Below, one piece after another: positions 1 through 64,000 of a stretch of DNA of 64,000 bases; the stretch's first letter is position 1; every line of letters starts with the position of its first letter. The stretch comes from Branchiostoma floridae (lineage: Eukaryota > Chordata > Leptocardii > Amphioxiformes > Branchiostomatidae): NCBI RefSeq assembly GCF_000003815.2, contig NC_049983.1, forward strand, positions 16,452,059 through 16,516,058. The letters are read 5' to 3'. The position numbers and the translations under genes were made by a program. The notes under the pieces were generated by a model. The model saw nothing but the letters and a program-made list of their open reading frames with translations, was not told the DNA's origin and did no database searches.

Positions 1-247
1 TGGATTTCGAAAACTTAAAAGGACTCTCGTCCAAGTTTTCCTGTTGTGAAGCCATCTTGAAATTCTTTGGCCTTGGAAAAAAAATTTGTGTTTGGTGTTT
101 CTTGAAAAAAAGATAATCCCTACCTACCGATCCTATTTTTTCAGGACTGAAACAGGAAACAAAACATTTTTTCCCAGGCCTTAATTACTGAATACACATA
201 CATGTACTAATTTTCAGTATATGAACAATATGAAAATCACATCTTAC

Positions 248-25200: not shown

Positions 25201-28200
25201 TTCAGTCTCTGGGACCAAACTCATTCGACGTGTCATTTTCCTCGGTACACGAGCGTACATTGTATGCGGGGAAACTGTCTGGTTTAGACGCCGTGGATGT
25301 GTCATCTTACGCGGCGGCGGAGATAATTGTCACGGCCACAAGAATTCCGTATGAGCTCGATGACAACTATGTCAGGAACTGGTTAAATCAATACTGTGCC
25401 GTCATCACGTCCCGTATGGTAACATACCGGGACAGACCGACCATCAAAAATGGGAACCGGCAATACAAAGTAGTTTTAAAGCCGGGATGCAATATACCAT
25501 CAGCATGGAAAATGTTTGACGGGAGGATGGTTTTCTTCAGGTATGTGGGGCAGCCCCGTACCTGCTTGAGATGCAACCAGGAAGGCCATGAGTCGGCAAA
25601 TTGTGCAGTAACATTTTGCAACAAATGCCAATCCATTGGGCATTTGGCCATGGATTGTACCAACGATGTTGTGTGCCTCAGTTGCAGGGCAGAGGGACAT
25701 ACGGCCCGCCGTTGTCCCCTGTCCTTCGCAAACAGGATTAAGATGGGAGCCAGTTGGGCTAAGAGCCAAGAGCTCCCGGCAGGTGTGAGTCAGGTCCGTG
25801 AACACCATGATGGAGGGGATCCTCAGACTGTAAATAAGCCTGTTCGGTCGGAACTGGCCCATGTTTCTGACGCAGAGTCTGGTGTATCTGATCCTGTTTC
25901 GCCTCCAGGTCACCCTGGCAGTGTGGACCCGGGTACTTCTTCGGCTGTGAAGTCGGATGTTTCTTCTCCGGTCGTGGAGCCGGAGGATTCTCCTCCGGTC
26001 GCGGTGGTTGAGCCGTCTGAGGACGTGCTGTCGGAGGCCGCTCCTTCTCTGACCAAGTTTTCTCCGGTCGCGGTGGTTGAGCCGTCTGAGGACTTGCTGT
26101 CGGAGGCCGCTCCTTCTCTGGCCAAGCCTGGCCTTTCTTCCTCTTCTAGCGAGCAGGTACCCTCAACATCTGCTGCTCCGGTACCGGCCCCTCGCGCCCG
26201 GTCCCAGAGAAGGAGGCGTAAGGCGGCCAGTCCTATCCGACCTGTTACTCGTCGGTACATGTGTCAGGGTTGTGAGTTGGATTACACAATCACTCTGGAG
26301 GTGGTGTCTTGTCATCAGTGCAAGGCAGACATAACTCCAGAATCTGCTCTCCTTGCTTTCTGTGAGGGCCCAGTTTGTCAAAGCGATAATCGCCTCTTTC
26401 TTTGTCAGAGCTGCCATGATGGCAACTCTGATATTGCTGACAAAGATTCCAGGAAAAGGTGTAGGGGTGATTCCAGTGAGGGATCTGCCTCTGCAAAGAC
26501 TTTGTCGAAAGGAAAAAAGATTCGTAAGGAGCCGGATTCCGACTCCAGTCTTGTTATCGAGGAGTTTCCCTCGGAGAGTCTTCGTTCTGTGGACGGTAAC
26601 GAGTCTGACTCTACTGTTGGCTCCAGAAGCCTCATCATTGATGAGGATACTTCGGATGCCTCTCAGGCTCCAAGTCCCGATTTGGTAGCAAAGGCGAGAG
26701 CCATTGTCATCTCCTCTGACTTGTACAAGAATAAGGCTGTCTTTGTGTGCAACCAGTTTATTTCTCATGGTTGTGACGAACTCTTGCATAGTTTTAGGTC
26801 TTTGAAATCTCACCTTGCAAAGGCGCATGGCATCTCCGGGGACATTGTGCCTTGTAAGGTTGGTAATTGTTCGAGGTTTTTTAAAACCACCATGTTATGT
26901 CTCAAGCACCTCTACAATGTCCACCCCCAATTTGTTAACCGAATTGGTGTGGAAGGAATTGATGATCTGTACCACTAATTCCTCACATTCCGATGTTGTT
27001 TGACATTCCTTCTCTATGTAGCCTCATGGTTCTTATTGCTACACTCAATGTCTGTGGGCTCCGTAGTCCGCAGAAGAGGAGGCAGGTTTTCGGCTTTTGC
27101 CGTCAACATAAATTTGACGTTGTTTGCCTCCAAGAGTGCCATGTTTCGTCAACATCTGAAGCGGTGCTCTGGGAGAAGGATGGGGAGGCAAGCGTTTTGG
27201 GCATTGGGCTNNNNNNNNNNNNNNNNNNNNNNNNNNNNNNNNNNNNNNNNNNNNNNNNNNNNNNNNNNNNNNNNNNNNNNNNNNNNNNNNNNNNNNNNNN
27301 NNNNNNNNNNTTTGCCGTCAACATAAATTTGACGTGGTTTGCCTCCAAGAGTGCCATGTTTCGTCAACATCTGAAGCGGTGCTCTGGGAGAAGGAATGGG
27401 GAGGCCAAGCTTTTTGGGCATTGGGCTCCTCCCAATCTAGAGGTGTGGGTATTTTAGTCTCTCCATCTTTCAATTTTGATGTGGTTAAAAAGTCTTGTGA
27501 CGACAGTGGGCGTGTTGTCTGTGTCGTCTTGTCCGATGGTGCGCGTAATTTCAAAGTTTGTAACATGTATGCTCCTAACATTTCTGCGGAGCGTACTGGA
27601 TTTTTTAAAAATTTGTATAAGTTTCTGTCGGGGGCTGAGCCCCTTATTTTGTGTGGTGATTTTAACTGCGTTGAAGATGTTGATATTGATAAGAGGGGCG
27701 GGAACCCGGCTCATGGTAGTGGCGGTTCCACCGTTTTAAAAGACATTTGCGCCGATTTTAATGTGCATGACTCTTGGAGACATGAGAATCCTTCTAAAAA
27801 GGTCTTCACTTGGAGACAGCCGACCAAAGGTATTGCCTGTCGGCTGGACCGATTTTATTCGTCTAAATGCCTCGTCGTTTCAAACTACTGTTTTTTACCC
27901 GCATATTTTACAGACCATGACTGTGTGTCCTTGTCAATTTTACCGGATGTGAAGAAGAAGCCTGGCTTGTGGAAATGTAATGTCTCGATTTTAAAAAGAG
28001 ACAAAGTTTTAAATGATTTTAAACTCGCTTTTAACAATTGGAAGACTTTGAAACCAGGTTTTCCTTCTTTGCGAGCCTGGTGGGATGATGTAAAGGCTAG
28101 AACTCGCTCTCTCCTGATCAGAATTTCTTGTGAACTGGCTAGGGAGAGACGGGAGTCCATGTTTACCTTGAATAATGAACTTGTCGATCTCACCAACAAG

Positions 28201-31200
28201 ATGAACGACGGGGCCTCTTCGGCGGACATCTTGCGTAGGTATGAATGTACTAAGTCTTCCTTGTCCGAGTTGTCCGCTGAGGAGGCTCGCGGTGCTTTTG
28301 TTCGGTCCAGAGTCAAGCAATTTGTCGAGGGGGAAAAATGTACCTCGTATTTTGTAAGCCAGGCCTCTTCCCGAAGTAGGCAGCGACGCATTTCTTCGGT
28401 CAGAGATTCTACTGGACGTGTTGTCCAAGATGACGAGGAGATTTTAGACATTTTTAAGCTATTTTATGAAGACCTTTTTAGTGCTGAGCCTATTGATAAG
28501 TGTGAGGCGAATAACCTTTGTAACAATTTAGAAGGGTCTTTGGATCCTGATGAAGTTTCTTCATTAGAAGGTCCTCTTTCATTGGATGAGCTTTGGGCTG
28601 CATTGCGCAGTATGGAGAATAATAAGTCCCCTGGCAGTGACGGTCTCCCGAAGGAATTTTATGTCGCTTTCTGGGACGTCATTGCCGGGGATCTCCTCTC
28701 AGTTTTTGAGGAAGTTTTTTCTTCTGGCGAGCTCTCTCAGAGCCAGAGTTTTGGTGTTATTACTCTCCTTCCAAAAAAAAGGGACCCTCTGGACCCGAAG
28801 AACCGTCGCCCCATCTCTTTGTTAAATTGCGATTATAAGATTCTTGCAAAGGTCCTTAACAATAGGCTTAAGATGGTTGCCGCCTCGGTCATCAGTCCTG
28901 ACCAGACATGCGGTATACCAGGCCGGTCGATACAATGTAACCTACTTTTGATGAGAGATATCATTACATATGTTAATATGAATAACTTTGACTGTGCGAT
29001 CATTTCTCTGGATCAGGCCAAGGCCTTTGATAGAGTGAATATTGATTTTCTTCACTTGACTCTTGCGAAGATGGGTTTTGGCCCGGTTTTTCGCAAATGG
29101 GTTGCTATATTGTACCACAACATTACCAGTGCTGTTCTCGTCAATGGGTCGCTATCATCTTCTTTTTCTCTCTCAAGAGGTGTTCGGCAGGGGTGCCCTA
29201 TGTCACCCCTGCTGTACGCAATTTCTTTGGAGCCATTTGCCGCTACAGTAAGGGCCGACGCTGCGATTCACGGCCTCAGGTTGCCTGGTGGCCGTGAAGT
29301 TAAGATCTCGCAGTATGCGGACGATAACTCGGCTATTGTTACAACCGATGAGTCGATCCGCCGGCTCTTTGCTGTTATTGACATGTATAACAGAGGTTCC
29401 GGGTCTCTTTTAAATCTTGACAAATGTATGGGTCTCTGGCTAGGTAGTTGGAGGAAAAGACTCGATTGTCCGAAGAATTTTAAATGGACATCTGTATCCA
29501 TACGTTTATTGGGAGGTACTTTTGGAAGTGTTAATATGCCTTTAGTCAACTGGAGGGAGAGGCAAGCTAAGTTTGAAGCGGTTCTGCGAAGGTGGGACAG
29601 CTTCTCTTTATCCTTCGCTGGCAAGGTTGTCGTCGTTAATAACCTTGCTTTATCTACTTTGTGGTATATTGCTCCTGTATTTTCTCCTCCCGAGTCAGTC
29701 GTCAAGGACATTACGAGAGCCGTCTTTAAGTTTTTCTGGAGTTCTCGTGCAGAAGTGGTATCTAGACAGACAGTTATGCTACCTTTGGACAAAGGTGGAT
29801 GGGATCTCATTGATTTTGGAGTGAAGGCCAATTGTTTTTATTGTCGGCCGTTTACCAATATTCTTGACCGGCCGGATCTTCCATGGGTCCAGTTGGCAAA
29901 ATATTGGCTGGGTTTTTTTGCCCGTCGTTTTGAACCATCATCGTGGTCTAACAGTTCCCCCCACTCTCCTGAGGCTCCACCTCACTATTCTTTGATGCGG
30001 AAGCTCACCTTGGAGTTTGTTAATGCTTCTGCTTCGAAGACTTGGGACAGGATATGCACCGTGCAGTCTTTGTACAAAGCTGCCATTTTAGCTCGTTCTC
30101 ATACCCCTTCCGCTTGTTTTTTAGAGCGGGGTGTTGATTGGTCGCTTGTTTTTTCAACGGTGCATAACACTCTCCTTGAGAATAACCTAAAGGAGCTTTC
30201 CTGGAAGGTCGCACATGGGGCTCTCAAAACCAACTACTTGACTTGTTCGATTTGGCACAGAACTCCTTCCCCTCTTTGTCCGAGGAGAAACTGTAGAGCT
30301 ACGGAGACCGTTACCCATGCCATCTGGTCTTGTGGCGAGGTGCTCCTGACCTGGACTTGGGTCGAAGGGTTCATTAGGCGATGGGTGGTCTCTAGTTTTC
30401 GTGTTTCTCGCGCGGTCGCTCTCTATGGTGTTATGTCGTCTACCCTGAAGAAGTGTAAGAGAGATGTCTGCACCTACATTTTGGCCGTCGCTCGGTCTAA
30501 GATTTGGTGGTCCAGGTGTCAGGCTCTCTTTGACAATAATTTCGTATCTCACATTGAGCTGGTGTCTCTAATCAAGGAGGCTCTTAGGTTTAAACTCAAG
30601 ATGGAGTTTGTTCGACTTGGTTCTGAAAGTTTCTTGGCTGAGTGGTGCCAATCTGTTAGATGGGCAAGTGTGCGGACGGGAGTTTTGGTTCTACGTTTTT
30701 AGAGTCCTTGTCGTAGTAGTCTTTGTTTGGTGCTACAGTCTGTCTTTGCTATTGGTGGATTGTCTGTTAGATGTTCAGTGTGTGTGGTCAGTCCTTCACT
30801 ATGGTGTTCTCCTTCTACTCTCTAGTCCTCTTTATAATTTCCAGTTTGCTTTGATGTGTCGTTTCTTGGCAGAAGGGTGGGCGGGTGCAAGTCTGCCTCG
30901 GGTGGAATGGCACATCCTTTTTCTTTGTTTCCATTCATGAGTTGTTTCTTCTTATATTATGATGGTTTTCAGTTTGGTCTCTGTCTGTATTACTAAAACT
31001 GTTTGTATACCCAAAATAACAAAGGGCCTTTGGAAGGGGCTTTGGAAGGGCTGGGTTAAAAGGTCCGTCCATTGATCCATGGAAAAAAGCTGGCGTAAAG
31101 CCTTGCCTGGCGGCAAGGCAAAAAATTAGAATTTATTTTTTAAAGCAACAGCAGCAGAAAACTTTTCATAAATGAAAATGACATGATTCCGTTGGTATAT

Positions 31201-35652: not shown

Positions 35653-38600
35653 ATGATAGGCTTGATGTTAGTGACCACTGGGGTACTCCAGGACTTAATG
35701 ACGAGGTCTATCAACGTCCTGCTGAGGTCAGGTAAGTGCAACGTTACGTCATCCCTTCACTTACTATCAAACCGGGTCCGTTCCACAGCGTCAACGTTCT
35801 AGAGAACGTAAAGACAACGGTCTTGCATAGGTATACGTGTTGAAAATAAAACGTTTTCACATTACCGTGTTACTACATAGGAGACAACGTCTGAAAAAAT
35901 TGTATTATCAAGGAACAAAATCAGCCCCACATTTCTCATTACATGTGAAGGATACACAACTAGCCGGATACATAACTACTTTGACGTCCGAGCGATTTAT
36001 TGCTTTCTTAGATGGAAGGCGGAGGAAGGCGTTCAGCAACACCGCTTACTGAACACAAATGGAACAGTAACCTTTTGTTCTAGAACTAATTTTTCCTAGA
36101 TATAGTACAACGTTTCTGGTATGTCAAATTCAAGAACACAGTTTTCCGAAAAGGAAAATGTGGTTTCTTTCGGGTTGGATACAAAAACCTTTTCACGATA
36201 CCGAGTTACTCAATGGGAGACAAGGTCTAAAAATATATGTGCGCAAGTAAAAGAATCAGCCCAAGAATTTCCATGACATCATAATATGTAATATTACATC
36301 ATAATATGTACTATTATTTAGACGTTCGATTTAATGCTTTCTCATACTGAAGGCGGGAGACGGGGTTCAGAAACACTGCTTAGAACAACGTCACAGTTCC
36401 GAACCGGGGCCCGGCCGGGCTGTTTGTAGGAACTAAGAATAGAAATGTATGCACAAATATGCACAAATAATGTCCACGACTATTCCTTTTACGTCTTGCG
36501 TAGGTTGTTGTACTTTTTTCATACTTTTTTTCATTTTTTGCGTAGGTTGTTGTACTTTTTTCATACTTTTTGTTCCCGAAACCTGTCCGGCCGGGCCCCG
36601 GTTTTGAAATGACACGTATGAATATGCATGAAACAATACCCTTTTGTTCTAGAACAAACTCATTCTTAGATATCGTACAAAACTTGCAGATATAGAAATG
36701 AATTCAAGAACAAAGTTTTAAGAAAATTCCATAGTCACCGTTTAGTGATGTTTAAAAGGTTGACATGCTCTGATAATGCTTAAATGACATAACGTATATA
36801 TTTTCAGTCGCAGTATCAGCACAGACTGTCAGGCCTGAGACTACTGCGTGCAAGACAGACATGCGCAATGGCTCTGACGTGGCTGCTGAGTCCGAGACGA
36901 AGCCGGAGAGTCGCGAGAGTCTAAATGGACCAGGCGCATGCGCACCTACGGATGAGGCCCCACAGACCAGTGTAGCAGGAAAGTCCGCATCACCGGCAGA
37001 TGTTGTAGGTAAGAATGGTTTTGGTCAAGACATTTTGGTCGTAATTTAGAACTTTACAACTTTAGAACTTTATTAAAATCACCACCTTGCAGGCATTTAG
37101 CCTGAATTGTGTTGGTGTTTACAAACTTCGTTATTAACATTGTTTATAAAGTTATTACAATTCTAAAAACACTTGAAATTGAGACATAATAATTTTGCTA
37201 AGCAACACAAATTGCAGACTTTAAATGAATATATACAATATTGGTAAAGATGAGTAAGACACAAGTCATACGACAGTTGATGTGAAAGTGCCTTAACTGT
37301 GATTCAACAGAGCAAGGGCCCTGGGGATAAACGATTGGGAATTTGCAATAAGTTAAACAAAGGTTGCAAATAGAATGAAGTGTGCTATACATGACTTTTC
37401 TTTTCAAAACATGTATTGATATTGACCTAGAATTACTAATCATATATATATGCAAACAAGGGATCTACTGGTACTGTGCCGTTTCGTATTTCGCCTTCCA
37501 ACATAAGAGGGGCTTACACAGATTACTACAACACATAAAACATGAAACTTTTAATATAGAATGAGTCTTTCCTAAGCCTAACTGTTTTAGAACTCCTGCA
37601 GCAATGTCGATATACTTTCTAAAAAAAGTGAAAATGTGTCCTGATTTGTAGGACACCTCATAGCTAAGGCTTAGGTCACATTTAAAAAAAGGGGCCCGGC
37701 CGGGCAGCTATAGGGAGCAAAGCAAATAATAGAAAAGACATCAAAATACACAAGATGTCAAAATAAGATTCAAGGGCATACTTTGTGTATTTTTCTTGGT
37801 ATACAATTTGATTTCTCGTTTCTTGAAACATCCCGGTCGGGCCCCGGCTTGGAAATGTGACCCAGGCCTAAAGAGAAATGATGATTTAACGTTAAATGTT
37901 TTGCATTATTTTGCAGACAACCGGAGTGGCCGTGGCACAGATGACACCATGGCCAGTGTCGGAGTCTGCGACGACACCACGGCCAGTGTCCGTGTCTGCG
38001 ACGACACCACGGCCAGTGTCCGTGTCTGCGACGACACCACGGCCAGTGTCCGTGTCTGCGACGACACCACGGCCAGTGTCCGTGTCTGCGACGACACCAC
38101 GGCCAGTGTCCGTGTCTGCGACGACACCACGGCCAGTGTCCGTGTCTGCGACGACACCAAGGCCAGTGTCCGTGTCTGCGACGACACCAAGGCCAGTGTC
38201 CGTGTCTGCGACGACACCACGGCCAGTGTCCGTGTCTGCGACGACACCACGGCCAGTGTCCGTGTCTGCGACGACACCACGGCCAGTGTCCGTGTCTGCG
38301 ACGACACCACGGCCAGTGTCCGTGTCTGCGACGACACCATGGCCAGTGTCCGTGTCTGCGACGACACCAAGGCCAGTGTCCGTGTCTGCGACGACACCAT
38401 GGCCAGTGTCCGTGTCTGCGACGACACCACGGCCATTGTCGGAGTCTACGACAAGAAGCCGGAGAGTCGCGAGAGCCTGAATGGGCCAGGCGCATGCGCA
38501 CCTATGGGTGACGCACCACAAGCCAGGAGGGCCGGAAAGTCCGCATCACCGGCAGGTGTTGTAGGTGAGAATGGTTTTGGTCAAGGAAATTCTGATCGTT

Positions 38601-42860: not shown

Positions 42861-43010
42861 CATGCACTGCCTTAAAAGTATAAAGCTCTCTCAAAGTGGC
42901 TGATTAGCCTAAGAATGAAATTGATCTGGCCTTTACATCATCATCATTTCATTTTCTTTTGTTTATTTACAGGAGGTCTGAAAACCAGCACTCGAAAATT
43001 CGAAGCCACC

Positions 43011-44003
43011 ATGCTCGCACCAGGTTTTAGAGCTTCTTCCAGAATATTTACATGGTTCCTTATGGCATCACTGTTAGGCATAATTAGCCTCATAGTACTA
43101 GTAGTATGGGTCATCGGTTACCATGGCAACCCCTATTCAGAGACCGCAAATCAGAAATATTCATCTGAAGTCGTTAAAAAGCCGATTAACCCACATCCCT
43201 ATAGGTTCACCATGGCTCACGAGGACAAGTGCGAACGCGACGGAAATGACGTTTTCCTCGTCATCATTGTGCACACGGCACACGACCACGTGACTCAACG
43301 TCAAGCAATCAGAGCCACCTGGGCGAACGAGTCAAACACCCCTGGGGTCGAGATCAAGACACTATTTGCCCTGGGAACGACAGATCAGCAAGATCTCCAA
43401 CGGGAAGTAGAGAAAGAAGACGCCATATTCGGGGACATCATTCAAGAAAATTTCCTAGATTCGTACAAGAATCTGACACTTAAGGCGGTGATGACTTTGA
43501 AATGGTTCCTGGATTTCTGTCCGAACGCGGCGTACCTCATGAAAATTGACGACGATACATACGTGAACCTTGACAACCTGATTGCTACGCTGCTGGGGAT
43601 GGAACAAAAATCTCAACTTGTACTTGGCAATATTCACACAAAAGACAAACCAATACGTAAAGTCGAAAACAAATGGTATCTGTCAAGGTATTCGTTCTTG
43701 AGAGAGTCGCTCCCATCGTTCGCTTCCGGAGGATCTGGTTACGTCATTTCCGGTGACATCGTGCGGAGTTTATACGAAACATCACTTCGCACCAAATACA
43801 TATATCTTGAAGACGTGTTTATCGGTATGTGCCTGGAAACGTTGGGCATCACGCCCGTACACAACGGAGGCTTCCTCTGTTGCCAGAGGGTGGACATAGA
43901 TGACCGGTACCCCTGCGCATATCAACACCATATTACTGTACACGGTCTTTCAGCATTGGGCATGTCCGTCCTTTCAAGGGCTGAGAGGGAATGTGTGCTG
44001 TGA
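43011..44003 (+). CDS. Beta-1,3-galactosyltransferase-like protein (GT31), 330 aa
   Basis: Single coding exon. A strong acceptor TTGTTTATTTACAG at 42972 precedes an ideal start context GCCACCATG, so a 5' UTR exon must lie upstream. It is a type II Golgi protein: cytoplasmic head of about 16 residues, anchor TWFLMASLLGIISLIVLVVW, short stem, then the GT31 catalytic domain. Family motifs are RQAIRATW, YLMKIDDDTYVNLDNL (the DDD metal/UDP site) and YLEDVFIGMCLETLGI. Length is typical (310-350). By family knowledge it transfers Gal or GlcNAc in beta-1,3 linkage from a UDP-sugar to glycan acceptors; which sugar cannot be told from sequence. Coding exons without introns are common in this family. 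No defect is seen. Confidence 0.9.
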   Translation: MLAPGFRASSRIFTWFLMASLLGIISLIVLVVWVIGYHGNPYSETANQKYSSEVVKKPINPHPYRFTMAHEDKCERDGNDVFLVIIVHTAHDHVTQRQAIRATWANESNTPGVEIKTLFALGTTDQQDLQREVEKEDAIFGDIIQENFLDSYKNLTLKAVMTLKWFLDFCPNAAYLMKIDDDTYVNLDNLIATLLGMEQKSQLVLGNIHTKDKPIRKVENKWYLSRYSFLRESLPSFASGGSGYVISGDIVRSLYETSLRTKYIYLEDVFIGMCLETLGITPVHNGGFLCCQRVDIDDRYPCAYQHHITVHGLSALGMSVLSRAERECVL

Positions 44004-53800: not shown

Positions 53801-56800
53801 TACTGCACTTCTTCATTTGCCCTCCTCAATTGAGATAAAGCATGGTGATTTTCCAGCAGTTGTATTGCAGTGCAGTTTAATTTGGCTTACGAATCGCTTC
53901 TCTATATTTAACTGTATTGGGTGCCTTTAGGTATAGAGGTTTGACGCCATTAGTTCGACCATTTGAAAGGCTTCGCGCTGAAACGTTTGAACTGATTTCT
54001 AGTATCAGATTGTAACAATCATACCGGTAAACACAGCAGCGGCCTGCGTCAGCTCGTCCGCGCCCTTCGCCCTCAGCGCGGAGACCATCCCGGCTGGGTC
54101 CTCCGTCCCGCAGTTCAGGTAGTCGCACAGCTGCTTGGTAAATGCGAGTGGGTTGTAGTTGATAGCTCCGGGTGTCATGGCGACGCCGCTCTGACAGATG
54201 GCCCGCTGGAACAAACCTGTTGTCTTGGGAGATATCAGCTGCATGCTGACGGCCATGCCGCCTGCGCTCTCTCCGAAGATTGTTATCCTAGGTCGACAGA
54301 GTGTTAAAAGTATTTAAAAGACCACCCCGACATTTTTTAATGGGATCTCGCGAGAACACAACCTATAACGGGATCTTCCGTGATCTTGCACGAGAACTAC
54401 GACGGAGAAGATTTAAGTCTATCAGACAATATTTGAAAATAATGAGGAAATATAAATCAATGCATCAGTATACAAAAGAGATCGAAATATTCTCAACCAT
54501 TTTCTTTAAAAAAATCTGCGAATATTTCTGTCACTGCCCCACTACTGCTATTATTGAGAATTCTATTTTGTTGTCAAATGTGACCATATGAAACTCTATG
54601 GAAATAAAAGTACGACACTTGTGATTAAATACAGTATAAGGCTTGTCTTTCTTTTGTTCAAATCTGAAACTTCGTGGGTATTCCGACTTCTGTAACCACT
54701 TTTATATTCACATTTGATCATAAGCGGACTCTAACGATGTATTACGAACAACTGTTCCTGAGTTCAGATTATATCCACCGTGAACCTGCAAATATGTACA
54801 AGCTACACAACCACGATTATTCAAAAGTAAACGTGTAGATGTTGATATTCAACCTCATACAACTAACGTCACCAGCCTAATCACAAGATTAAGACCAACC
54901 CAACACTGTTCACACTGCATTGCGGACTGAAGGGCGTAGCCAACGAATCACCGATATAGGGACAAAATTCCTCCCGGATTTCCCAACAAGAAGGTACCGA
55001 ACGGAGAGTTTCTGACTAGCTCTAAAGGTAAGCTGGGATAAAATTAAAAAGGTCAACCTTTTTGTATCTAAAATGTGACATTGACTATCGTGCAAGGTCA
55101 AACTGATGGGCAGAATTAGGTTAGACAGAATTCGACATTTTGGAACTTTCGGCACAAAAACTACATTGAATAAGGTACGCCATCCCTCTCTGCAAGGCAC
55201 AGAGATCACCACACCCACAATCACTTTTCTCTTAGAGAAGGCAGTCTTCATGTAGACTTTACTATACATGTCTTAAATGTTCGAGAGGAGTAAACAACCT
55301 GCGTAATTTCAATATTCAACCAGCAAGTTTCAGACAATCAACACCACGCACACCAGTATAGCAATTAACGACTGCCACACCCCATATATAACGTTATGTA
55401 CAAACAAGTATTCTAAAGGCAGAACAACTGATTTTAGATGATTATCTATTGAAGAGAAATAGAGACAGAAGACTTTCATTAAAGAACATCGATTCTATGG
55501 AAAATTTTAAATAAACTTCAGCTGCAAGTGTATGTCACAGGCAGCAAATCTTCACTAATCACAACACAGTAGGTAAAAAGACCACCAATGACTTCAATAC
55601 GACGGTTTGAAAATAAATGTTTGTCCTCCTCGGTGGTTCTTCGATAAAACGCCCAGCTTCTCATGCTTTATCAATTTCCTAGGCTCTGAACATGCTTTGC
55701 ATTTGGTCATAATTAAATAGGTTGTGACGAAATTGTATATATTTGGGGCCCTAGTAGATTTGAAATCGAATGTGCCATTTTGCTGATGGGGTTTGAAGGA
55801 TTTTGGTAAGGTTTGATTGCGCAAATCAGTGCCAAATTGGAATGACATAGGTTGATATGATTATGCAAATTAAGGCATAGGAGAACTTTTATTCTTACCA
55901 ACATATGCAGGTTGGAGGGAAAAAAAAACAGTTGATTTTGATGATGTGCCTTACTGTTTTTAATTTTTTTGTTTGTTCAATCTTTACATATGATTTACTA
56001 TCCATACTTTGTAAATTTCAGTTTCATTAATTTTCGATTTACACATGATTTGATATATGATTTGACCTCTGACCTCCACTCCATCTCTTGACATATTGAT
56101 TTTGACCTTGGAACGTTTTCGACATGAGTATGGACACTGATTATGTTTTGACGCACCGGTTTTATGTTTTCTGTACTGTATGTTGTCCCTGGATGTTCAA
56201 AGTTTGACTGATTGTAACCACGTTTTTTGTCCTGTATTTATTATTTTACATGTATGTTTGATGGGCCCCCTTGGAAATCAACTATGCACTGTTGTAGGGG
56301 CTACCCATCTGTTTTCAAGATGAAATAAATAAATAAATAAATAAATGATGCAAATAAGGTCCATTTGTACATAATTAGTGGGAAACATGTAAATATAATC
56401 GTCATATTTATGTCATAGTGCGAACTCGCTGAGAAGTACTGTTTGTTGTAGTGGAAAAACTGTAGCCTAACTTGAATTGCCTACATCTGAATTGATTACA
56501 CATGTGCTAAGTTCCATCTACTTTTAACATTTTGCATTATTTGAAATGTTTTGGCGTACAAAAATGAAACAACCTTGCACAACGTAGGCGGGGGCTCTCT
56601 TGTATTCCTTTGAAAATATTGATACTAGCTACTACACAGCCATTTTTATGAGTGCAGGTAGAATTAGACATACAAGCGTCAAATGATTTAATTTCATTTC
56701 GGTTTTCTATTCTTTAAGGTGACAGAACAAGATGGGAAGAAAGCTGAGGCACTTGCTAATTTTCCTTCTCATCATCCTGAAGGAACCAAACCTACTGGGA

Positions 56801-59800
56801 GCTGACTGCCCCTGTCAGTTGCCCATCTACTGCAAATGCGCAAGCCTGGGCCTCACCAGCATTCCAGAACTTCTGCCAAGATCTTTAACTACTTTGGTTT
56901 TGGTTTCTAATCCCATATCAGGCATTCCCTCTGGCTCATTTTCAAAACTATCCAAGATTCAAAATATAAACCTATGCTGCAATCAAATAACAAACATTCA
57001 GCGTGGCACATTCTCGGATTTACCCCAACTCCGAAGTTTGATCTTAGACAGAAACAAAATCACCAGCATACAAAGTGGTGTATTCTCAGACTTGCCCCGA
57101 CTACAATTTCTCAACCTAGACCAAAACCAAATAGCTAACATCCAGCCAGGTGCATTGTCACGTTTACCCCAGCTCCAAACTCTGAAACTAGGCCACAACC
57201 AAATAACCAACATCCAGGATGGTATATTCTCAAATTTTCCCCAGCTCCAGGATTTGGAAATATACCAAAACAAAATAGCTACCATCGAGGTTGGTGCATT
57301 CTCAAATTTGCCCAAGCTAGTACATTTGTGCCTTCACCTCAACCAAATAGCCGCCATCCAGGATAATATATTTTCGGATTTACCCAAGCTCAAGGATTTG
57401 AACCTCAGCCACAACCAGATAACCACCATCAGGGAAAAATCATTCTCAGATTTACCCAAGCTACACAATTTGTACCTTGCCTCCAACCAAATAACTAAGA
57501 TTGAGCCTCATGCATTGTCAGAATTACCCCAGCTAAGAAGTTTGAAGCTAGGCTACAACCAAATACCTAACGTTCCGTCTGGTACAGTATGGGATTTAAC
57601 AAAGCTTGAAATTTTAGACCTGCAGTCAAACAAGATAACTACCCTTCCACGAGTAGCTATTGGCCTTTTGGCATCTATGAGTGGTGTTAACATTGGCAAT
57701 AACCCATGGAAGTGTGATTGTAATATTTCTCAATTTAGGCATGAAATGGCTAGATATTTTTCTGCTTCATTTGCAGAGCAGATGATATGTGTCGAGCCTG
57801 ACAAGTTCTTTGGAAGACAATTGAAAGATATCAATCTCGAAGAACTAGATTGTAGAAAGAAAACAATAACAACATTGCCTGTTGCTATCCCACCCTCACC
57901 TACCCCTTATGTGGAGCTGGGACATTCTTCAGTTGGTAAATATGAAGAAAATAATGCCAAACCAACACCACCTACCATAGCCCCAACATTTGCCCAAACC
58001 CCTAGGCCTGTTGCTGAACAGACATCAGATCTAAGATCTTCATTTGGTAATGCAGGCAATAATTGTCACCCAACACCACCGGCACCTAAAAGTAAAACAT
58101 CCGGCAAAATCCCTGTTGCTATTCAGGCCTCAGCTACCTCGTTAACAGTGCTAAGATCTTCATTTGGTGATGCAGGCAATAATGGTCATCCAACACCACC
58201 AACACCTATAAGTAAAACATCCGGCAAAATCCCCGTTAATATCCAGGCATCTCTTATCTCCTCTGAAGAGCTAAAATATTCCTCATTCAGGAATGCAGAA
58301 AATGATACTCTCACAATTACAACACCACCTGCTGTTAGTTCGGCATTTGACATAATGTCTGATAATACCCAAAGAAACGTGTTAGCAACAGTTACAACGA
58401 CACCATTAACCACTCGTGGTGGTTCGCTGAAACGAGAAAGGGACAGGCATTATGAATCAGAAACTGATATCTCTCTCCCTGTTTACATTGTCTCTCTTAG
58501 CGGTGCCGTAGCTGTCACTGCCCTCATTGTCGCCGTTATTGTCACAATCGTATACAAGAGAAGGGCAGGTAAACGTTCTCCGGACTCAGACGCAAATAAT
58601 GGTTTTAGCAACAGAAACATTACATCTACTATTGTAGTAACAGGCCAGGGAGGGCAATCAGAGACTGGACCCAAACCCACAACCACCCAGAACTCACCAT
58701 CAACCAATGCAAATATACCCTGTCATAACCAACCTCCCCCACTCCCCCCACGTCGCAAAGGTGCTTCTTTAGCACGCGAGAACGCCCAAGCGGAATGTCA
58801 TGACACTCAACCCAGGCCCAACAATCAACACATACCAGAAACCAATGATGGTCATGATGGTGCAAATGGCACTACACACCACTACCAACCATTAGCGAAG
58901 TCATGGAATATCAACGGACCCACTGATTGTCATGACTACTTAATGCTTGTAGCAAATGCGCAGGCCAATACAATCAAACCATACAAAGATGAGCCTCCCC
59001 CTCTTCCCCCATCCCGTAAAGTTGCTTATGCAGTAGATGAGAAAAAACACTACCAATATCTAACAAAACCCGATAACCAGCCTGCTGATGCAGCTGAAAC
59101 CCCACATCACTACCAATCTCTAAAACAAACCATGACAGTTGAAGGGTCCACTGATGAAAATGGTTACTTAGTACTTGAACCAAAAGTGAATGACAAAAAT
59201 TAACATCTGAACATTGCCCAGCCTGCTTCAATATCTACGATTAAGGTCTGTATCTAAAATTTCCATCAAATGCCACTATAAGGCCAAATATGGCCAGTCT
59301 CATGGGTCTCGTGGGCTCCAGGGTCACGCTGATGTATAGCTTATCAGATCTCCACTTACTCCTCCCAAACACCCCTTCTACATGTAGTTCACTTGTCTAC
59401 GGGTAAACTCGGATCCGCGAAAAGCGTTCTGCATGAGTGCCACGCCTTAAGATATATTTTATTGCTTTTTGAGTTAAACTAGCCTTCCAACCCAAACGCA
59501 TTCAAAATTGCAACATTCCAACAAGGGTAGATCTGCATAGAATCATAATTTTCGTCTGCACACCAAATGCCAACAAAAATGCATCCGATAATTTTACGTG
59601 GGCTGACATGCTGTTGTAAAGAGCAACTCAACAAGAGATTGTTGCATTGGTTCAGCTGAAGGTGCAAGTATATTACTAGCTATAAAGAGCAACTATCCGT
59701 TCGACGACTATGCTATTTGTTTACTTGATTATACACTCCCTGGAAGGGTGGAACTGAAAACTCACATATTATTTCAATCCCCGCTTCAAGTTAACAATTA

Positions 59801-62020
59801 TGGAGCATACCTGATAATGGCCACAGTAATAGTTACACATTCAACAATTTCGGGAACTTTTGCATGCAGATCTGTCAGAGACTTAGGTTCATGCATGCAA
59901 ACCCGTAAAGACAAATTATGACGTTAGCTTTTTTAGCAGAGGTAACAATGTACTGCAGTACGTATACGTGTTTAGTCAAAAAACGAGTGTTCAAAGTAAA
60001 TATGATGTGTTCTCAAAAATAACAATGAAAATATCTAAAGAATATCTTATTTCTCGTCCTTATAAGAGCAATAGTACGTTAAAGCAGTGTCTGTATTACA
60101 TTTAAGTTCAATTATCATCGATCTTTTATGACTTTATTGACAAGTCAAGACGTTTTCTCACCTTATATAACCTATGTATCAAGATTATAATGTACACATT
60201 TGTTAGTGGTGACTAAACCAGGGATTTAGATTTAGGGGATCAATATTTCATTCTAGAACATGACTGTATTAAGGTTTGTTTGGTAGGAAGTATGTATCAT
60301 AGTGTGTGTATAAAGATTCAGGTTTCCCTTTCTGACAAGTTTTCTATCTTTTAAGCATGTGGAGCAAATATGACATCTGCACATAAATTTCACCGTCTCC
60401 ACAGTTACTTTGTATGTAATGGACAAAAAAGCTTGTTCAACTTGCATTAGACATTACTTGCCATTGTTAATGTCCATAGAAGTTTTCTGTCACATTTATG
60501 TAAATTGAGTCAGATCTTATTACTACAGCAGTACTTTTCAATATTGTGAATACGTGGGGCATGATTGTTGCGTTGATTCAGCTGAAGGTGCAAGCATTTT
60601 ACTTCAATTGATAAAATCTAGAAGCATCAGAAAGAGTGGTAAAAGTATCAATCCATTTTTTGTAACTTTACAGTGAACTTGAACATTTTGACAATGTTTT
60701 CATTTCAATTCACCTTCGATTGCAAAACATTCGACCTTATTGCATGGGTGTTCTATTAGTTTGATTAGAGGATATTTCAGCGTACCATGGTTTCACAGAG
60801 CACTCACTGGTAGAAGAAGAAGTTTTTTCTTAATTGGTGCTATTCCACCATGTACCAAGATTCTCAAATGATTGTTCAAAAGTAATAATTATTCTCAGTG
60901 ATTGTTGTACAGTTTTGACTTTCAGGAGTAGGTGTAAGTCTTTGACAAATAAAGAGACACAGAGTATACTTCCGTTTTTGGTATGTAGTAGAAGTCTCAA
61001 CTCCCAACTTATAATTAATAAAAATTTTAACATCAAAATCCATGATTTTGTAAGTTTCAAATTCTTGACTTTTACCAGCTTTACAACATGTTTAACAGCT
61101 TACCAGAGCATAGACATCAAAAGGCAGAGGGAATAACACATTGGCATGTAAAAATTCAAACATTTCACAATGGTTACAAGCAGGTTATCATAATGGTTAC
61201 CTAATAGGATCCCCGCCGAAGTTGTGGATGTTCTCCTTCACCCAGACGATGGCTGCCCGCTGGTCCATGAGTCCGTAGTTTCCCGGGGAGTTCCGGTCCC
61301 CCGTGCTGAGGAACCCGAATACGTTCAGCCGGTAGTTCATGGCAACCACGATGACGTCGCCCCTGCTAGCCAAGCACTTGCCGTTGAACGACAACGCCGT
61401 GTCAAAGTTGAACCTTTTGGGGAATGGTAGCAGCTTTCATCGAGAGTTTTTTTTTTCATATTGTCATGATACACAAAAAGCCAGGTGTGATCGAGGCCAT
61501 CTCAAGAATATCCAGAACACCTTACTATCTGAAGTATACATGGCTCTGCATTACTGATGCTGACAGAACAACAGATCTTATGTTATGGAGAGCTGGAGCT
61601 CACATGCCCAAACACACAACAACAACAGAAAACATACCTTCCGCCATGAATATACACCATGACCGCTGCACTCTGAGTTGCGTTCGAGCCATTGACGGGT
61701 ACATAGATGTTCAGGAACAGGCAGTCCTCCGACACTGGTCCGTACTGTGTCCTGGTCTGCATGCACGAGGCTCCGAACGTCGAGGCGTTCCTTACGCCGT
61801 CCCATGGCTGGGCGGGCTGGGGCGGCCTGAAGCGGAGAGGGCCGGTCGGGGGAGCCGCGTAAGGAATGCCGAGGTATTCTTCTACTGTCGAGCCCTCGAA
61901 GGCGACGGTTCTGCCCGACACGCGGCCCAGACGTGTTGTCCGAGTTGGGTACGCATCCTGGGCCTTCACACAGAGCGACAACACTGCGAAAACTACGCTC
62001 AAGGATCCGGTCGAAGTCAT
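47841..62020 (-). CDS. Carboxylesterase type B / cholinesterase-like enzyme, seven exons, 580 aa
   Basis: Exons 62020-61638, 61413-61201, 54287-54025, 53751-53513, 51900-51760, 50989-50787 and 48141-47841 agree in phase (2,2,1,0,0,2) and total 1743 nt. The start at 62020 gives signal peptide [20 protein letters not shown]; an ATG 28 codons upstream is less likely. Motifs: [53 protein letters not shown], the nucleophile elbow FGESAGG (exon 3), acid Glu in GCNNDEGG (exon 4) and His in [12 protein letters not shown] (exon 6). The triad is complete. The short first Cys loop lacks the cholinesterase Trp region, so a general carboxylesterase is more likely than AChE. The C-terminus [17 protein letters not shown] after a small-residue stretch suggests a GPI-anchor signal. 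Intron 2 holds an entire receptor gene on the other strand. Confidence 0.88.
48142..48780. other. Esterase intron 6, 5' part
   Basis: A short segment TTTCATTTTACAAGGGTAAA near 48276 resembles tails seen elsewhere (TTTTACAAGGTACAAAG at 34515). No exon seen. Confidence 0.35.
48800..49390 (+). repeat. Four diverged tandem units of about 150 bp in esterase intron 6
   Basis: Units near 48812, 48965, 49118 and 49266 share CTGTATCTCSKGAACG, TTTGGTACGTG, TGATTTTGGGCCTC and CTTGAACTTGACAT blocks. Overlapping minus-strand ORFs with PTHVPKI and PTHAPKI are translations of this repeat, not genes. Confidence 0.7.
49665..49748 (+). CDS. Possible short first exon, unknown
   Basis: ATG frame [20 protein letters not shown] then IECGHKRK ends at a good donor AAAG|GTATGT in phase 0. 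The CxxC...H pattern is protein-like, but no downstream exon was found. It lies inside an esterase intron on the opposite strand and could belong to a transposon. Confidence 0.25.
49749..50786. other. Esterase intron 6, 3' part
   Basis: No supported feature. The ORF at 50452-50778 has no splice or family support. Confidence 0.35.
51520..51709. mobile_element. GC-ended MITE, copy D
   Basis: CGTCACATTTCCAGACTGGG at left; reversed right end GGCCTACGTCACATTTCCAA, then ACCGGGCCCCGGCCGGG. TAA stands outside both ends (51517-51519, 51710-51712). It ends only 50 bp from the donor of esterase exon 5. Confidence 0.75.
51935..53013. repeat. Dispersed repeat with CCTCCATGAAATGTCATGGAGG start, copy 2 (1.1 kb)
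   Basis: Opens with the hairpin ACCTCCATGA/TCATGGAGGT and a (GTCT)n stretch. Several diverged 150-bp subunits follow (GATAACTCAAGAA, TTTGGGCCCCCTAGCG, TTTGCATAATTAATGAG). It ends ATTTTCATGGAGGTATGAGG, then CTGAACTCTAG|T. Starts 35 bp from the acceptor of esterase exon 5. A CTAG end before T would fit a Helitron-type 3' end, but the other copy ends CTTG, so the class is open. Confidence 0.5.
53083..53163 (+). tRNA. tRNA-like sequence, probably a pseudogene or SINE head
   Basis: An A-box-like TGGCGTTGTGATTTGCACG and a perfect B box GGTTCGAATCC are about 40 bases apart. An anticodon-type hairpin CTGGATTTGTGATCCGG between them would give anticodon TGT. The acceptor stem does not pair and the T stem is imperfect, so a functional tRNA is unlikely. 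Confidence 0.3.
54288..56731. other. Esterase intron 2, left flank of the nested receptor gene
   Basis: Holds repeat fragments at 55590-56470 and AT-rich unique sequence. The polypyrimidine-AG TTTTCTATTCTTTAAG at 56718 looks like an acceptor 13 bases before the receptor ATG, so a 5' UTR exon of that gene may lie in this stretch. Confidence 0.4.
55590..56346. repeat. Repeat fragments ending in a LINE-type (AAAT)n tail
   Basis: GTCCTCCTCGGTGG and TTTGGGGCCCTAGTAG blocks resemble the 52-kb repeat. A separate tail GATGGGCCCCCTTGGAAATC, then GGGGCTACCC and (AAAT)6 at 56323-56346, looks like the 3' end of a truncated non-LTR element. Confidence 0.45.
56732..59203 (+). CDS. LRR single-pass receptor with YxxL and SH3-ligand tail, 823 aa, single coding exon
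   Basis: Signal peptide [20 protein letters not shown] is followed by an LRR N-cap ([11 protein letters not shown]). Eleven 24-residue LRRs of the LxxLxLxxNxIxxIxxGxFSxLPQ type span about 45-310. An LRR C-cap follows ([12 protein letters not shown]...MICVEP...LDC). A Thr/Pro-rich stalk has a duplicated unit SSFGxAGNNxHPTPPxPxSK. The TM helix [20 protein letters not shown] lies at about 584-610, then a stop-transfer YKRR. The 215-residue tail holds PPPLPPRRK (about 668) and PPPLPPSRK (about 755), SH3-type ligands. It also has five YxxL motifs: Y718 QPL, Y736 LML, Y774 QYL, Y794 QSL, Y812 LVL. No TIR or kinase domain is present. It is a candidate immune or adhesion receptor by architecture. The gene lies wholly inside esterase intron 2, antisense. 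Confidence 0.9.
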   Translation: MGRKLRHLLIFLLIILKEPNLLGADCPCQLPIYCKCASLGLTSIPELLPRSLTTLVLVSNPISGIPSGSFSKLSKIQNINLCCNQITNIQRGTFSDLPQLRSLILDRNKITSIQSGVFSDLPRLQFLNLDQNQIANIQPGALSRLPQLQTLKLGHNQITNIQDGIFSNFPQLQDLEIYQNKIATIEVGAFSNLPKLVHLCLHLNQIAAIQDNIFSDLPKLKDLNLSHNQITTIREKSFSDLPKLHNLYLASNQITKIEPHALSELPQLRSLKLGYNQIPNVPSGTVWDLTKLEILDLQSNKITTLPRVAIGLLASMSGVNIGNNPWKCDCNISQFRHEMARYFSASFAEQMICVEPDKFFGRQLKDINLEELDCRKKTITTLPVAIPPSPTPYVELGHSSVGKYEENNAKPTPPTIAPTFAQTPRPVAEQTSDLRSSFGNAGNNCHPTPPAPKSKTSGKIPVAIQASATSLTVLRSSFGDAGNNGHPTPPTPISKTSGKIPVNIQASLISSEELKYSSFRNAENDTLTITTPPAVSSAFDIMSDNTQRNVLATVTTTPLTTRGGSLKRERDRHYESETDISLPVYIVSLSGAVAVTALIVAVIVTIVYKRRAGKRSPDSDANNGFSNRNITSTIVVTGQGGQSETGPKPTTTQNSPSTNANIPCHNQPPPLPPRRKGASLARENAQAECHDTQPRPNNQHIPETNDGHDGANGTTHHYQPLAKSWNINGPTDCHDYLMLVANAQANTIKPYKDEPPPLPPSRKVAYAVDEKKHYQYLTKPDNQPADAAETPHHYQSLKQTMTVEGSTDENGYLVLEPKVNDKN
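59204..61200. other. Esterase intron 2, right flank
   Basis: Contains the presumed 3' UTR of the LRR receptor. AATAAA at about 60946 and ATTAATAAAAAT near 61015 are the only poly(A)-like hexamers noticed. The phrase TTCAGCTGAAGGTGCAAG occurs twice (59651 and 60578), a short dispersed repeat. No exon seen. Confidence 0.4.
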
Positions 62021-64000
62021 GACAGGGCGCGAGGAGTACGTCACTGGCCGGCAATGAGACCGCGGAGTCACAGATGTGGGGTAAAAGCTTCCAAGGTCTT
62101 CCAATGTCTATGGAACGGTGCCAACAAAGACACATGCATTAACAACGTAAACACATCCACCAAGCACTTGTTTAAATGATCTGACAACTGCTAATACGCT
62201 TGGGACAACATATGCAAATATGTTAGCATGAAACACATGCACATTGTCGAAGTTGTTTACAAACGTGAAGAAACCTTTAGCAACCTGAGTAGACTAAACT
62301 GCCATTTTCTGTTGGCATAATACAAGCTTTGAGTCTGTGCTCTTTTATCAATTGACCTTGCTCAAAGGTTCTATCCAGATGCTGTATGCGAGTCACGAAA
62401 TTGGCTTTAATTTCCGAGGGAAGTCATGTCCGTATACGACCGAAAAGTCTGCAACACATAGTTCTATTTGTGTCGGATAAAGCAACCTTTGTTTACATGG
62501 ACACGTACAGCGACAGCACTTGTCATTTGCTCGCATCAGTCACGAATGCCGATGTTTGAGGTTCCTGTTACAAGCTAAGGTCAATCAATGACGTCCGTAC
62601 CGAAAACCAACTGCAAGCCATTATGTTATACAGTGACACATCATGTTGTTGTAAGTCATCATTGAGAAAGAAAAGGGGGAATTACTACTTCAATCCACAT
62701 CAGGCAGATCTTCCCCATTGCTGAACAATACACATCATTTTCTCCATTAAGTCCCTTTATTTACTAAAGCATAGTCCTCAAGGACAGAAGCTTTGCCCCT
62801 CAGGGAAGACAGGTCCTTATTTTTGGACCAACACTTTTTCTTTACCCCCAAGACGGCAAGAGACCTGTCTTCTGGGTCAGACGTTTATTCTACATGTCAC
62901 ATCGTCAACTATTGAATTTTCTTATCTGTTATTGCCCATATGTTCCCATAGCAGTATGTTTCGACAGCTCTCTGTTCCGACATCACCTATACAACCCTTA
63001 CTGTAACATAAGGTTAATCTTGTTGAGAGAGAGAGTTTAGAGTTTATTTTGATCCACATTAGCCTCATTTTAGTTATCTCGGTTCTAACTAACTTTTTTT
63101 TGTGTGAAAGAAAACAACTCCATTATTGGAATGAAAACAAGGTATCTTTATTACAAACAACATTTGAATGAATGAATGAACGAAACGTTTGTTCGAACTT
63201 TGCAAACTGAACGTTTGAGTTGAATTGACTTGAACTGACTACGACCTTTAGTACTAGTGCACTTAAAATAAAATTAAAAAAACAACTAAGTTGTTGTTTG
63301 AGCAAAGCAACGAACTTAACACATGATCTCTGTAATCTCTTCGTGTGATTACTTGGCACTAACACCAGTGCATGCCTTAGGTAATTAAATACCTGATATG
63401 CAAGTAAGACACTTGAAATTACAGGCTGTGGTTACATCAATCCAGTGTTTTTTCGGTCTTTACAAAGATCACGAAGAGCTACAAGAGGCTGCGTATACGT
63501 ATATGATTTTCTACCCTGGCCAAAACTCAACTATGGCGTATTTCAGCCAACCACGCGTACGGCGTAGTTTGACAAGGCACGACGTATTTGTGCAACAGTA
63601 CCTTACAATTTGTTATTAAGACAAGAATGGAAACTGGACATTCGCTAAGTAGACAATAATTTCAACAACATTTAGTGCACCTAAATACTATGGGTGTACC
63701 TGCAATTATTAGAACTTGCAATCTTTATCAAAAGTGGCCTTTAAAAACAATGATGTTCAATGCTATGGAATGTAATTTTCGTACAACCCTAACTAGAACG
63801 AACCAAAACAGAAGACATGGTGCCAATAAGCTGAGACAGAGACCAGGTCCGTGCCCACAAACTTTAACGTCTGATGATGTACTTGTGCCTGTACAAGTTA
63901 CGACACCACTGTTCACTCGATAAGACATCGCTCGTATCACAAGAAGAAGACATGTCGACGAGAAGCCGCGAAGTCTGTTCTTATGTCAGTCCTTCAATGG
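62021..64000. other. 5' flank of the esterase gene, nothing else supported
   Basis: Presumed 5' UTR and promoter of the minus-strand esterase, with TACGTCACTGGCCGGC close to the start. Contains tandem GAATGAATGAATGAA at 63165 and scattered TTGAACTTGA-like runs. Short ORFs at 63398-63923 have no recognised family. Confidence 0.35.

Follow-up and report, generated by a model that had tools for sequence, protein, structure and literature searches.

A leucine-rich repeat receptor of Branchiostoma floridae with a duplicated block of predicted SH3- and SH2-ligand motifs in its cytoplasmic tail

In the 64,000-nucleotide stretch of Branchiostoma floridae DNA analysed here (contig NC_049983.1, positions 16,452,059 to 16,516,058 of the forward strand; hereafter the window), an intact gene encodes a leucine-rich repeat (LRR) receptor whose cytoplasmic tail holds two copies of one block, each with a proline-rich SH3-type ligand motif followed by a pair of YxxL tyrosines spaced 18 residues apart. 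Judged by the homology of its transmembrane (TM) segment and tail to those of paralogues, the receptor is a member of a large family of the LRR-TM(-Ig) type. It is probably a non-TIR LRR receptor on which Src-family kinases are predicted to dock by their SH3 domains and which is predicted to recruit SH2 proteins. The features of the gene, with the evidence for each, are as follows.

56732..59203, plus strand: intact single-frame open reading frame of 823 aa, type I LRR receptor (translation; LRR_8 E=3e-76)
56732..56803, plus strand: signal peptide, approximately aa 1-24 (hydrophobic N-terminus in the translation, judged by eye without a program)
56807..57853, plus strand: LRR ectodomain of 24-aa repeats between two cysteine caps, spanning C26 to C374 (Pfam, regular expression)
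57854..58480, plus strand: Pro/Ser/Thr-rich stalk, 36.5% P+S+T (composition)
58026-58265, plus strand: stalk repeats of 40 aa (120 nt) (internal repeat comparison)
58484..58552, plus strand: single TM segment, followed by YKRR (hydropathy maximum; matches paralogues)
58553..59200, plus strand: cytoplasmic tail of 216 aa, of low hydrophobicity and with no known domain (hydropathy, Pfam)
58718..58948, plus strand: tail block A (aa 663-739), SH3 ligand and Y718/Y736 pair (block alignment)
58733..58759, plus strand: PPPLPPRRK, class II SH3 ligand motif, from aa 668
58883..58894, plus strand: Y718, YQPL
58937..58948, plus strand: Y736, YLML
58979..59176, plus strand: tail block B (aa 750-815), SH3 ligand, Y774/Y776 and Y794/Y812 pair (block alignment)
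58994..59020, plus strand: PPPLPPSRK, class II SH3 ligand motif, from aa 755
59051..59062, plus strand: Y774, YQYL (with Y776), SH3-proximal tyrosines whose counterpart is missing in block A
59111..59122, plus strand: Y794, YQSL
59165..59176, plus strand: Y812, YLVL

The start codon is preceded by an in-frame stop, with three codons intervening. The ectodomain is capped by C26-C36 at its N-terminal and C328-C374 at its C-terminal side, and a strict regular expression matches nine LRR units in it. When the receptor was scanned against Pfam (E <=0.001), nine families were matched, all of them LRR families or weak LRR-like models; TIR, Ig, and kinase domains were absent from that scan, and no WSC domain was found in the ectodomain at the same threshold. 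Therefore, the proposal of a sequence-only reading that this is an LRR receptor without a TIR domain is borne out. The tail alone matched no Pfam family at E up to 1, and the peptide holding the tyrosine pair matched nothing in the PDB. The sole PDB match of the tail, FtsZ with E=0.49, was dismissed as chance. Viral and prokaryote collections gave no confirmed relatives of the receptor.

Other features were noted along the window. A mucin-like open frame of 590 aa (237-2009, minus strand) includes a 33-nt tandem repeat at 1438-1783. A non-LTR retroelement at 25089-30702 consists of an ORF with a CCHC zinc knuckle followed by an ORF with endonuclease and reverse transcriptase, and a run of 100 N (27211-27310) lies within it. 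A 30-nt minisatellite at 37943-38452, with 17 copies and a 97% match, is open in several frames. A single-frame gene at 42915-44003 (plus strand) is beta-1,3-galactosyltransferase-like (Galactosyl_T E=8e-51), and the stretch 61583-62104 on the minus strand, about 2.4 kb downstream of the receptor and opposite to it, encodes the N-terminal portion of a carboxylesterase-family protein (COesterase E=5e-38).

The same sequence-only reading had joined Y718/Y736 and Y794/Y812 into two pairs 18 apart with 14 residues separating the YxxL units, with a fifth tyrosine (YQYL) between them and PPPLPP-R/S-RK ahead of each block; all of these were confirmed, the fifth tyrosine being Y774 and the proline-rich sites starting at aa 668 and aa 755. 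The examined tail stretch has nine tyrosines in total, including four that this reading left unnamed: Y608 at the TM edge, Y751, Y766, and Y776. The class II SH3 pattern PxxPx[RK] has three matches at two sites (aa 669/670 and 757), where binding is predicted. After the SH3 ligand of block B tyrosines follow at +3, +11 (Y774), and +13 (Y776), while after that of block A the next tyrosine comes only at +42.

The pairs had also been likened to ITAMs. Of this likeness, two YxxL units joined by a linker of 14 residues remain, but the strict spacing of 6-12 (tested as YxxL/I-x(6-12)-YxxL/I within the tail) does not occur in the receptor. The ITIM pattern is [ILVS]xYxx[ILV] and the ITSM pattern is TxYxx[VI]. 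Strict ITAM, ITIM, ITSM, YxN, YxxM, and NPxY patterns all have zero matches in the receptor tail, and a canonical ITAM, ITIM, ITSM, Grb2-SH2, PI3K, STAT3, or NPxY identity of the tail was rejected for want of a matching pattern. Overall, the motifs mark it as a putative phosphotyrosine-type LRR receptor and, by the tests made, not as an ITAM or ITIM receptor.

Five or more Yxx[LIVM] units were reached in 27 of 20000 tail shuffles. Two disjoint, equally spaced tyrosine pairs (spacing <=30) arose in 10502 of 20000 shuffles; equal spacing alone is therefore uninformative and was rejected as stand-alone evidence. Alignment of aa 663-739 with aa 750-815 gave a protein score of 105, which none of 2000 shuffles reached (best 54), and the DNA of the two blocks also aligns (reached by 0/500 shuffles). 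These alignments show that both tyrosine pairs derive from a single block that was duplicated, and therefore the identical spacing of 18 reflects one event. Thus the claim of a duplicated paired module holds as to the shared contexts and the homology of the blocks, but not as to two independent occurrences, and two independent ITAM-like pairs were rejected. Between blocks A and B, the codons of the shared motifs have dN 0.13 and dS 0.77 (14/17 residues identical), against dN 0.71 and dS 0.85 for the remaining codons in the gap-free parts of the alignment (7/32 residues identical), which have changed freely. The difference (Fisher P=0.00013 on rounded counts) supports a constraint on the motifs but does not prove it, since the motif set was picked after inspection of the alignment.

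The own-genome protein search covered 513.4 Mb in 431 contigs. With the full receptor protein, at least 97 matching stretches were found, which fall into at least 55 places; this number is a floor because just 55 of 1911 first-look candidates were scored. A query with the TM segment and tail gave 51 stretches in 43 places (E <=1), many of them weak. The strongest homology of the window TM and tail was to genes at C5:5.63-5.65 Mb (E=8e-14, 5e-13, and 1.6e-10), and the segment of approximately 35-40 aa holding the pair matches paralogues with E=5e-5 and 6e-5. A DNA pattern for TIW[YC]KRR at the TM exit occurs at 52 places, against one for the reversed control, and 29 of the 52 are new relative to both protein searches; the window receptor, which reads TIVYKRR, lies outside this set. 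Four of the 29 were examined in 1-kb stretches, and all four run into a family-type tail with motifs such as YEDV, YEDI/M, YENI, or NPMY; in L071 alone the stretch also includes an LRR C-cap, recognised by eye. Taken together, the searches give 117 places, which are candidates rather than annotated genes.

For motif counts, 48 entries including the window were assembled, and 43 tails, 40 of them with a stop, were kept. L004, L029 (LRR frame), L033, L050, and L066 were left out since the script found no TM segment in them, although L033 and L066 do show one by eye. Thirty tails came from 33 of the 55 places, selected by LRR similarity and mostly top-ranked, and the other 13 of the 43 were picked by tail similarity. 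In the LRR-selected group, three or more tyrosines are present in 28 of the 30 tails, and 27 carry one or more of five motif classes, namely SH3 ligand (10 tails), YQxL (7), Y[EKQ][DE][VIM] (16), NPxY (10), and YxN (15). Against 500 shuffles, which overstate enrichment because paralogue tails share ancestry, the 43 tails have 31 SH3 ligands P..P.[RK] (shuffle mean 7.7, max 19), 15 YQ[PSY]L (0.17, max 2), 40 Y[EKQ][DE][VIM] (0.67, max 4), 24 NPxY (1.9, max 7), 114 Yxx[LIVM] (mean 48), and 46 YxN (24, max 39). No enrichment was seen in these tails for YxxM (12 against a mean of 5.2, within the shuffle range, max 14) or YxxP (32 against 25.7), and no excess for ITSM (1 against 3.1). One regular expression found 15 proline-rich ligand sites in nine tails; the next tyrosine stands at +12 to +14 in nine of the 15 and at +3, +18, +19, +21, +42, and +76 in the remaining six. 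It is supported by these counts that tails of this kind, the window tail included, carry SH2- and SH3-type ligand motifs, with binding predicted.

Two further tail types were observed. The 598-aa tail of L036 (G000:C1:24.04 Mb), with four PPPLPPPR sites of which three have YED(V/E) at +14, is an extreme form of the module of SH3 ligand and tyrosine. The tails of L052, L053, L055, and L060 (G000:C5:24.05-25.6 Mb) are 85-94% identical, have six to seven YxN (Grb2-SH2-like) motifs each, and form a separate class; three of them exceed the stretch examined, and both YxN-class receptors that were scanned, L052 and L055, have Ig domains after the LRRs.

The tails nearest to that of the window receptor are in a tandem cluster at C5:5.63-5.70 Mb, on the same contig and approximately 11 Mb from the window. 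YQPL-x14-YLIL, with a spacing of 18, is present in three of four cluster paralogues (L029t, L030, and L031), and L032 has CQPL-x14-YLIL, with Cys replacing the first Tyr. The four tails are 79-87% identical. Since the cluster genes are tandem duplicates, their agreement counts as one inheritance and not four, and therefore the independent comparison is that of the window with the cluster, whose divergence is deep (pS 0.53-0.61). In a remoter group, YQPQ or YHPQ stands 16 (L043), 16 (L067), or 13 (L047) residues ahead of a C-terminal Y[MI]x[IV] motif. Therefore, by this comparison the spacing of 18 is retained in a subclade at deep divergence and is not fixed family-wide. YxxL-x14-YxxL occurs five times in four of the 43 tails, window included (shuffle mean 0.03, max 1 in 300 shuffles), three of the four being tandem duplicates of each other or near kin. 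A second motif of L029t and L031, YKPL-x12-YQPL, falls within the ITAM spacing of 6-12, but two matches are within the shuffle range; the strict ITAM count of the 43 tails is two, with no excess (shuffle mean 0.43, max 3, 300 shuffles).

Tails of this type also occur on other ectodomains. L034 (HHYQPL...HHYQSL) and L035 (HYYQPL...HHYQSL) combine them with LRR-Ig ectodomains. We take these two, with LRR, Ig, a related TM segment, and an HHYQSL tail, to be like the amphioxus LRRIG proteins, from which the window receptor differs in having no Ig. L034 (G000:C15:19.97 Mb) has three Ig stretches and L035 (G000:C205) has two; in both, the TM segment is related to that of the window receptor and the tail has a proline-rich SH3-type ligand. 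In a comparison of 21 ORFs, the relatives closest to the window receptor in the ectodomain are L047 and L048, whereas in stalk, TM segment, and tail they are L030-L032. This discordance between ectodomain and tail points to either reassortment or concerted evolution of the LRRs. In the cluster member L029 (G000:C5:5628500-5635500), the ORF with the LRRs and the one with the TM segment and tail lie in different frames and were read separately; an intron, decay of the copy, or an error of assembly may account for the split.

A mechanism for the preferred reading, a docking and recruiting receptor, can be potentially described as follows. A ligand would cluster the receptor, and a Src-family (Lck-like) kinase would dock by its SH3 domain on PPPLPPxRK and phosphorylate the neighbouring tyrosines. 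The phosphorylated YxxL units may then recruit SH2 proteins of the Src-family, PLC-gamma-like, or tandem-SH2 (SHP or Syk) types, and those with tandem SH2 domains may bridge the tyrosine pair. In the own genome, 60 exon-level matches to SH2 were found, all over the cut-off, and some of them contain stops. The sign of the signal, activating or inhibitory, is not readable from the sequence.

The YxxL units could instead be AP-2 type (Yxx-phi) sorting signals of an endocytic or adhesion receptor, with the tyrosines acting unphosphorylated. All five units, and thus five of the nine tail tyrosines, fit Yxx[LMVIF], with binding predicted, and YQxL resembles classical internalisation signals. Sorting by itself appears unlikely, as it leaves unexplained the SH3 ligands linked to a tyrosine at a recurring distance, the occurrence of YEDV and NPxY motifs in paralogue tails, and the fixed spacing of 18 residues; sorting and signalling functions can coexist in one tail.

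With a similarly low probability, the tail would act in an inhibitory receptor like BbLcLRR of B. belcheri, recruiting SHP/SHIP phosphatases and damping a response driven by Src-family kinases. BbLcLRR is present in BbLck immunoprecipitates, is phosphorylated at three tail tyrosines (Y539, Y655, and Y690), associates with SHIP1 and less with SHP1/2, and is inhibitory in Jurkat cells; the same report names amphioxus homologues of SHIP1 and SHP1/2 (PMC8211107). Its tested motifs DDYATV, HDYSEV, and HDYDDP are unlike the YQxL and YLxL of the window tail. None of the five YxxL units has the hydrophobic residue or Ser at -2 that the ITIM pattern requires, and the 10 ITIM matches in the 43 tails show no excess over shuffles (mean 9.6), though this test is not final because the BbLcLRR motifs themselves do not all fit the strict ITIM.

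How far the motifs are held by selection bears on the docking and recruiting reading as well as on the weakest of its alternatives. In 16 disjoint pairs of tails, Tyr is third in order of retention, behind Trp and Pro. The family tails are under weak purifying selection, with dN/dS in 11 disjoint paralogue pairs of 0.34 for motif codons, 0.46 for Tyr codons, and 0.62 for the rest; the motifs are perhaps more constrained than the remainder, the difference between motif and rest codons being not significant across the pairs (P=0.22). A random-column test, in which columns with at least one Tyr were set against any columns, showed no excess conservation of Tyr columns (19136 of 20000 draws reached or exceeded the observed 83/125). 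The weakest alternative is a repeat-prone linker under little constraint, with motifs that persist through kinship and duplication rather than signalling. It would agree with this test, with the 0.62 of the non-motif codons and the P value across pairs, and with internal repeats in both stalk and tail. It is quite improbable, however: window and cluster are deeply diverged and yet share the pair, the spacing, and PPPLPPxRK; retention is 166/208 (0.80) for Tyr, compared with 0.57 for Phe and 0.72 over all residues; and several known motif classes exceed shuffles in different tails.

Jawless vertebrates have LRR antigen receptors, and jawed vertebrates have Ig receptors with tyrosine-based signalling. 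The results suggest a big, little-studied family of tyrosine-signalling receptors in an invertebrate close to vertebrates. As a tentative and rather doubtful extension, amphioxus might have a repertoire of approximately 100 or more LRR and LRR-Ig receptors with reassorted ectodomains and tyrosine/SH3 tails, amounting to an activating and inhibitory system comparable to that of the leukocyte receptors FcR and KIR but with LRRs in place of Ig domains, in which the 18-residue pair would be equivalent to a non-canonical ITAM. With a large pre-vertebrate LRR family that has built-in SH2-, SH3-, and PTB-type motifs, it could be tested directly outside vertebrates how tyrosine signalling by immunoreceptors arose, and BbLcLRR, the single receptor with tested tail tyrosines in the literature examined, would gain a family-wide context.

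Lancelet LRR genes expand and turn over fast (PMC4284660). In the CC-licensed literature on amphioxus LRRs and tyrosine motifs, within the text available, no account of the family tails was found, and a prior description is possible; the available parts of PMC8605373 hold nothing on ITAM spacing, and those of PMC2575513 and PMC5787515 hold no tyrosine-tail LRR receptor. The suggestion that the receptor is of an undescribed type needs qualification, since a tyrosine-phosphorylated amphioxus LRR receptor, BbLcLRR (PMC8211107; MW390887), has been described experimentally, and the gene is one of a large family; therefore the principle of a phosphotyrosine LRR receptor is not new. Both are amphioxus LRR receptors with one TM segment and no TIR. 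In BbLcLRR the tail tyrosines are phosphorylated by a Src-family kinase and SH2 phosphatases associate. The two, compared by description and not by sequence, differ in that BbLcLRR has a reported WSC domain, and the report, as far as its available text goes, mentions no module of SH3 ligand and tyrosine pair (PMC8211107). Amphioxus FrLRR, also an LRR receptor, was associated with the SH2/SH3 adaptor Grb2 but has a predicted GPI anchor and no cytoplasmic tail, unlike the window receptor (PMC10199209).

Outside amphioxus, two comparisons can be made, with an Fc receptor and with engulfment receptors. The ectodomain of Fc-gamma-RIIA is Ig, unlike the LRR ectodomain of the window receptor. Its non-canonical ITAM is the nearest analogue found, with no homology implied: two YxxL units lie in the ligand-binding chain, the second being YLxL, and are separated by a long linker with acidic residues, of 12 residues against 14 in the window receptor (PMC6433993). 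Draper, MEGF10, and CED-1 are similar in layout, being single-pass receptors, present in invertebrates too, in which Src-family kinases phosphorylate the YxxL or ITAM tail and SH2 proteins recognise it; they differ in their EMI and EGF-like or NIM ectodomains and in having NPxY with one ITAM or YxxL, and the available text mentions neither LRRs nor a duplicated SH3-ligand module (PMC8092387, PMC9388098). Draper uses Src42a and Shark (PMC8092387). In C. elegans, SRC-1 phosphorylates the YXXL of CED-1, and both the SH2 and the SH3 domain of SRC-1 are required for binding to CED-1 in the yeast two-hybrid system (PMC9388098).
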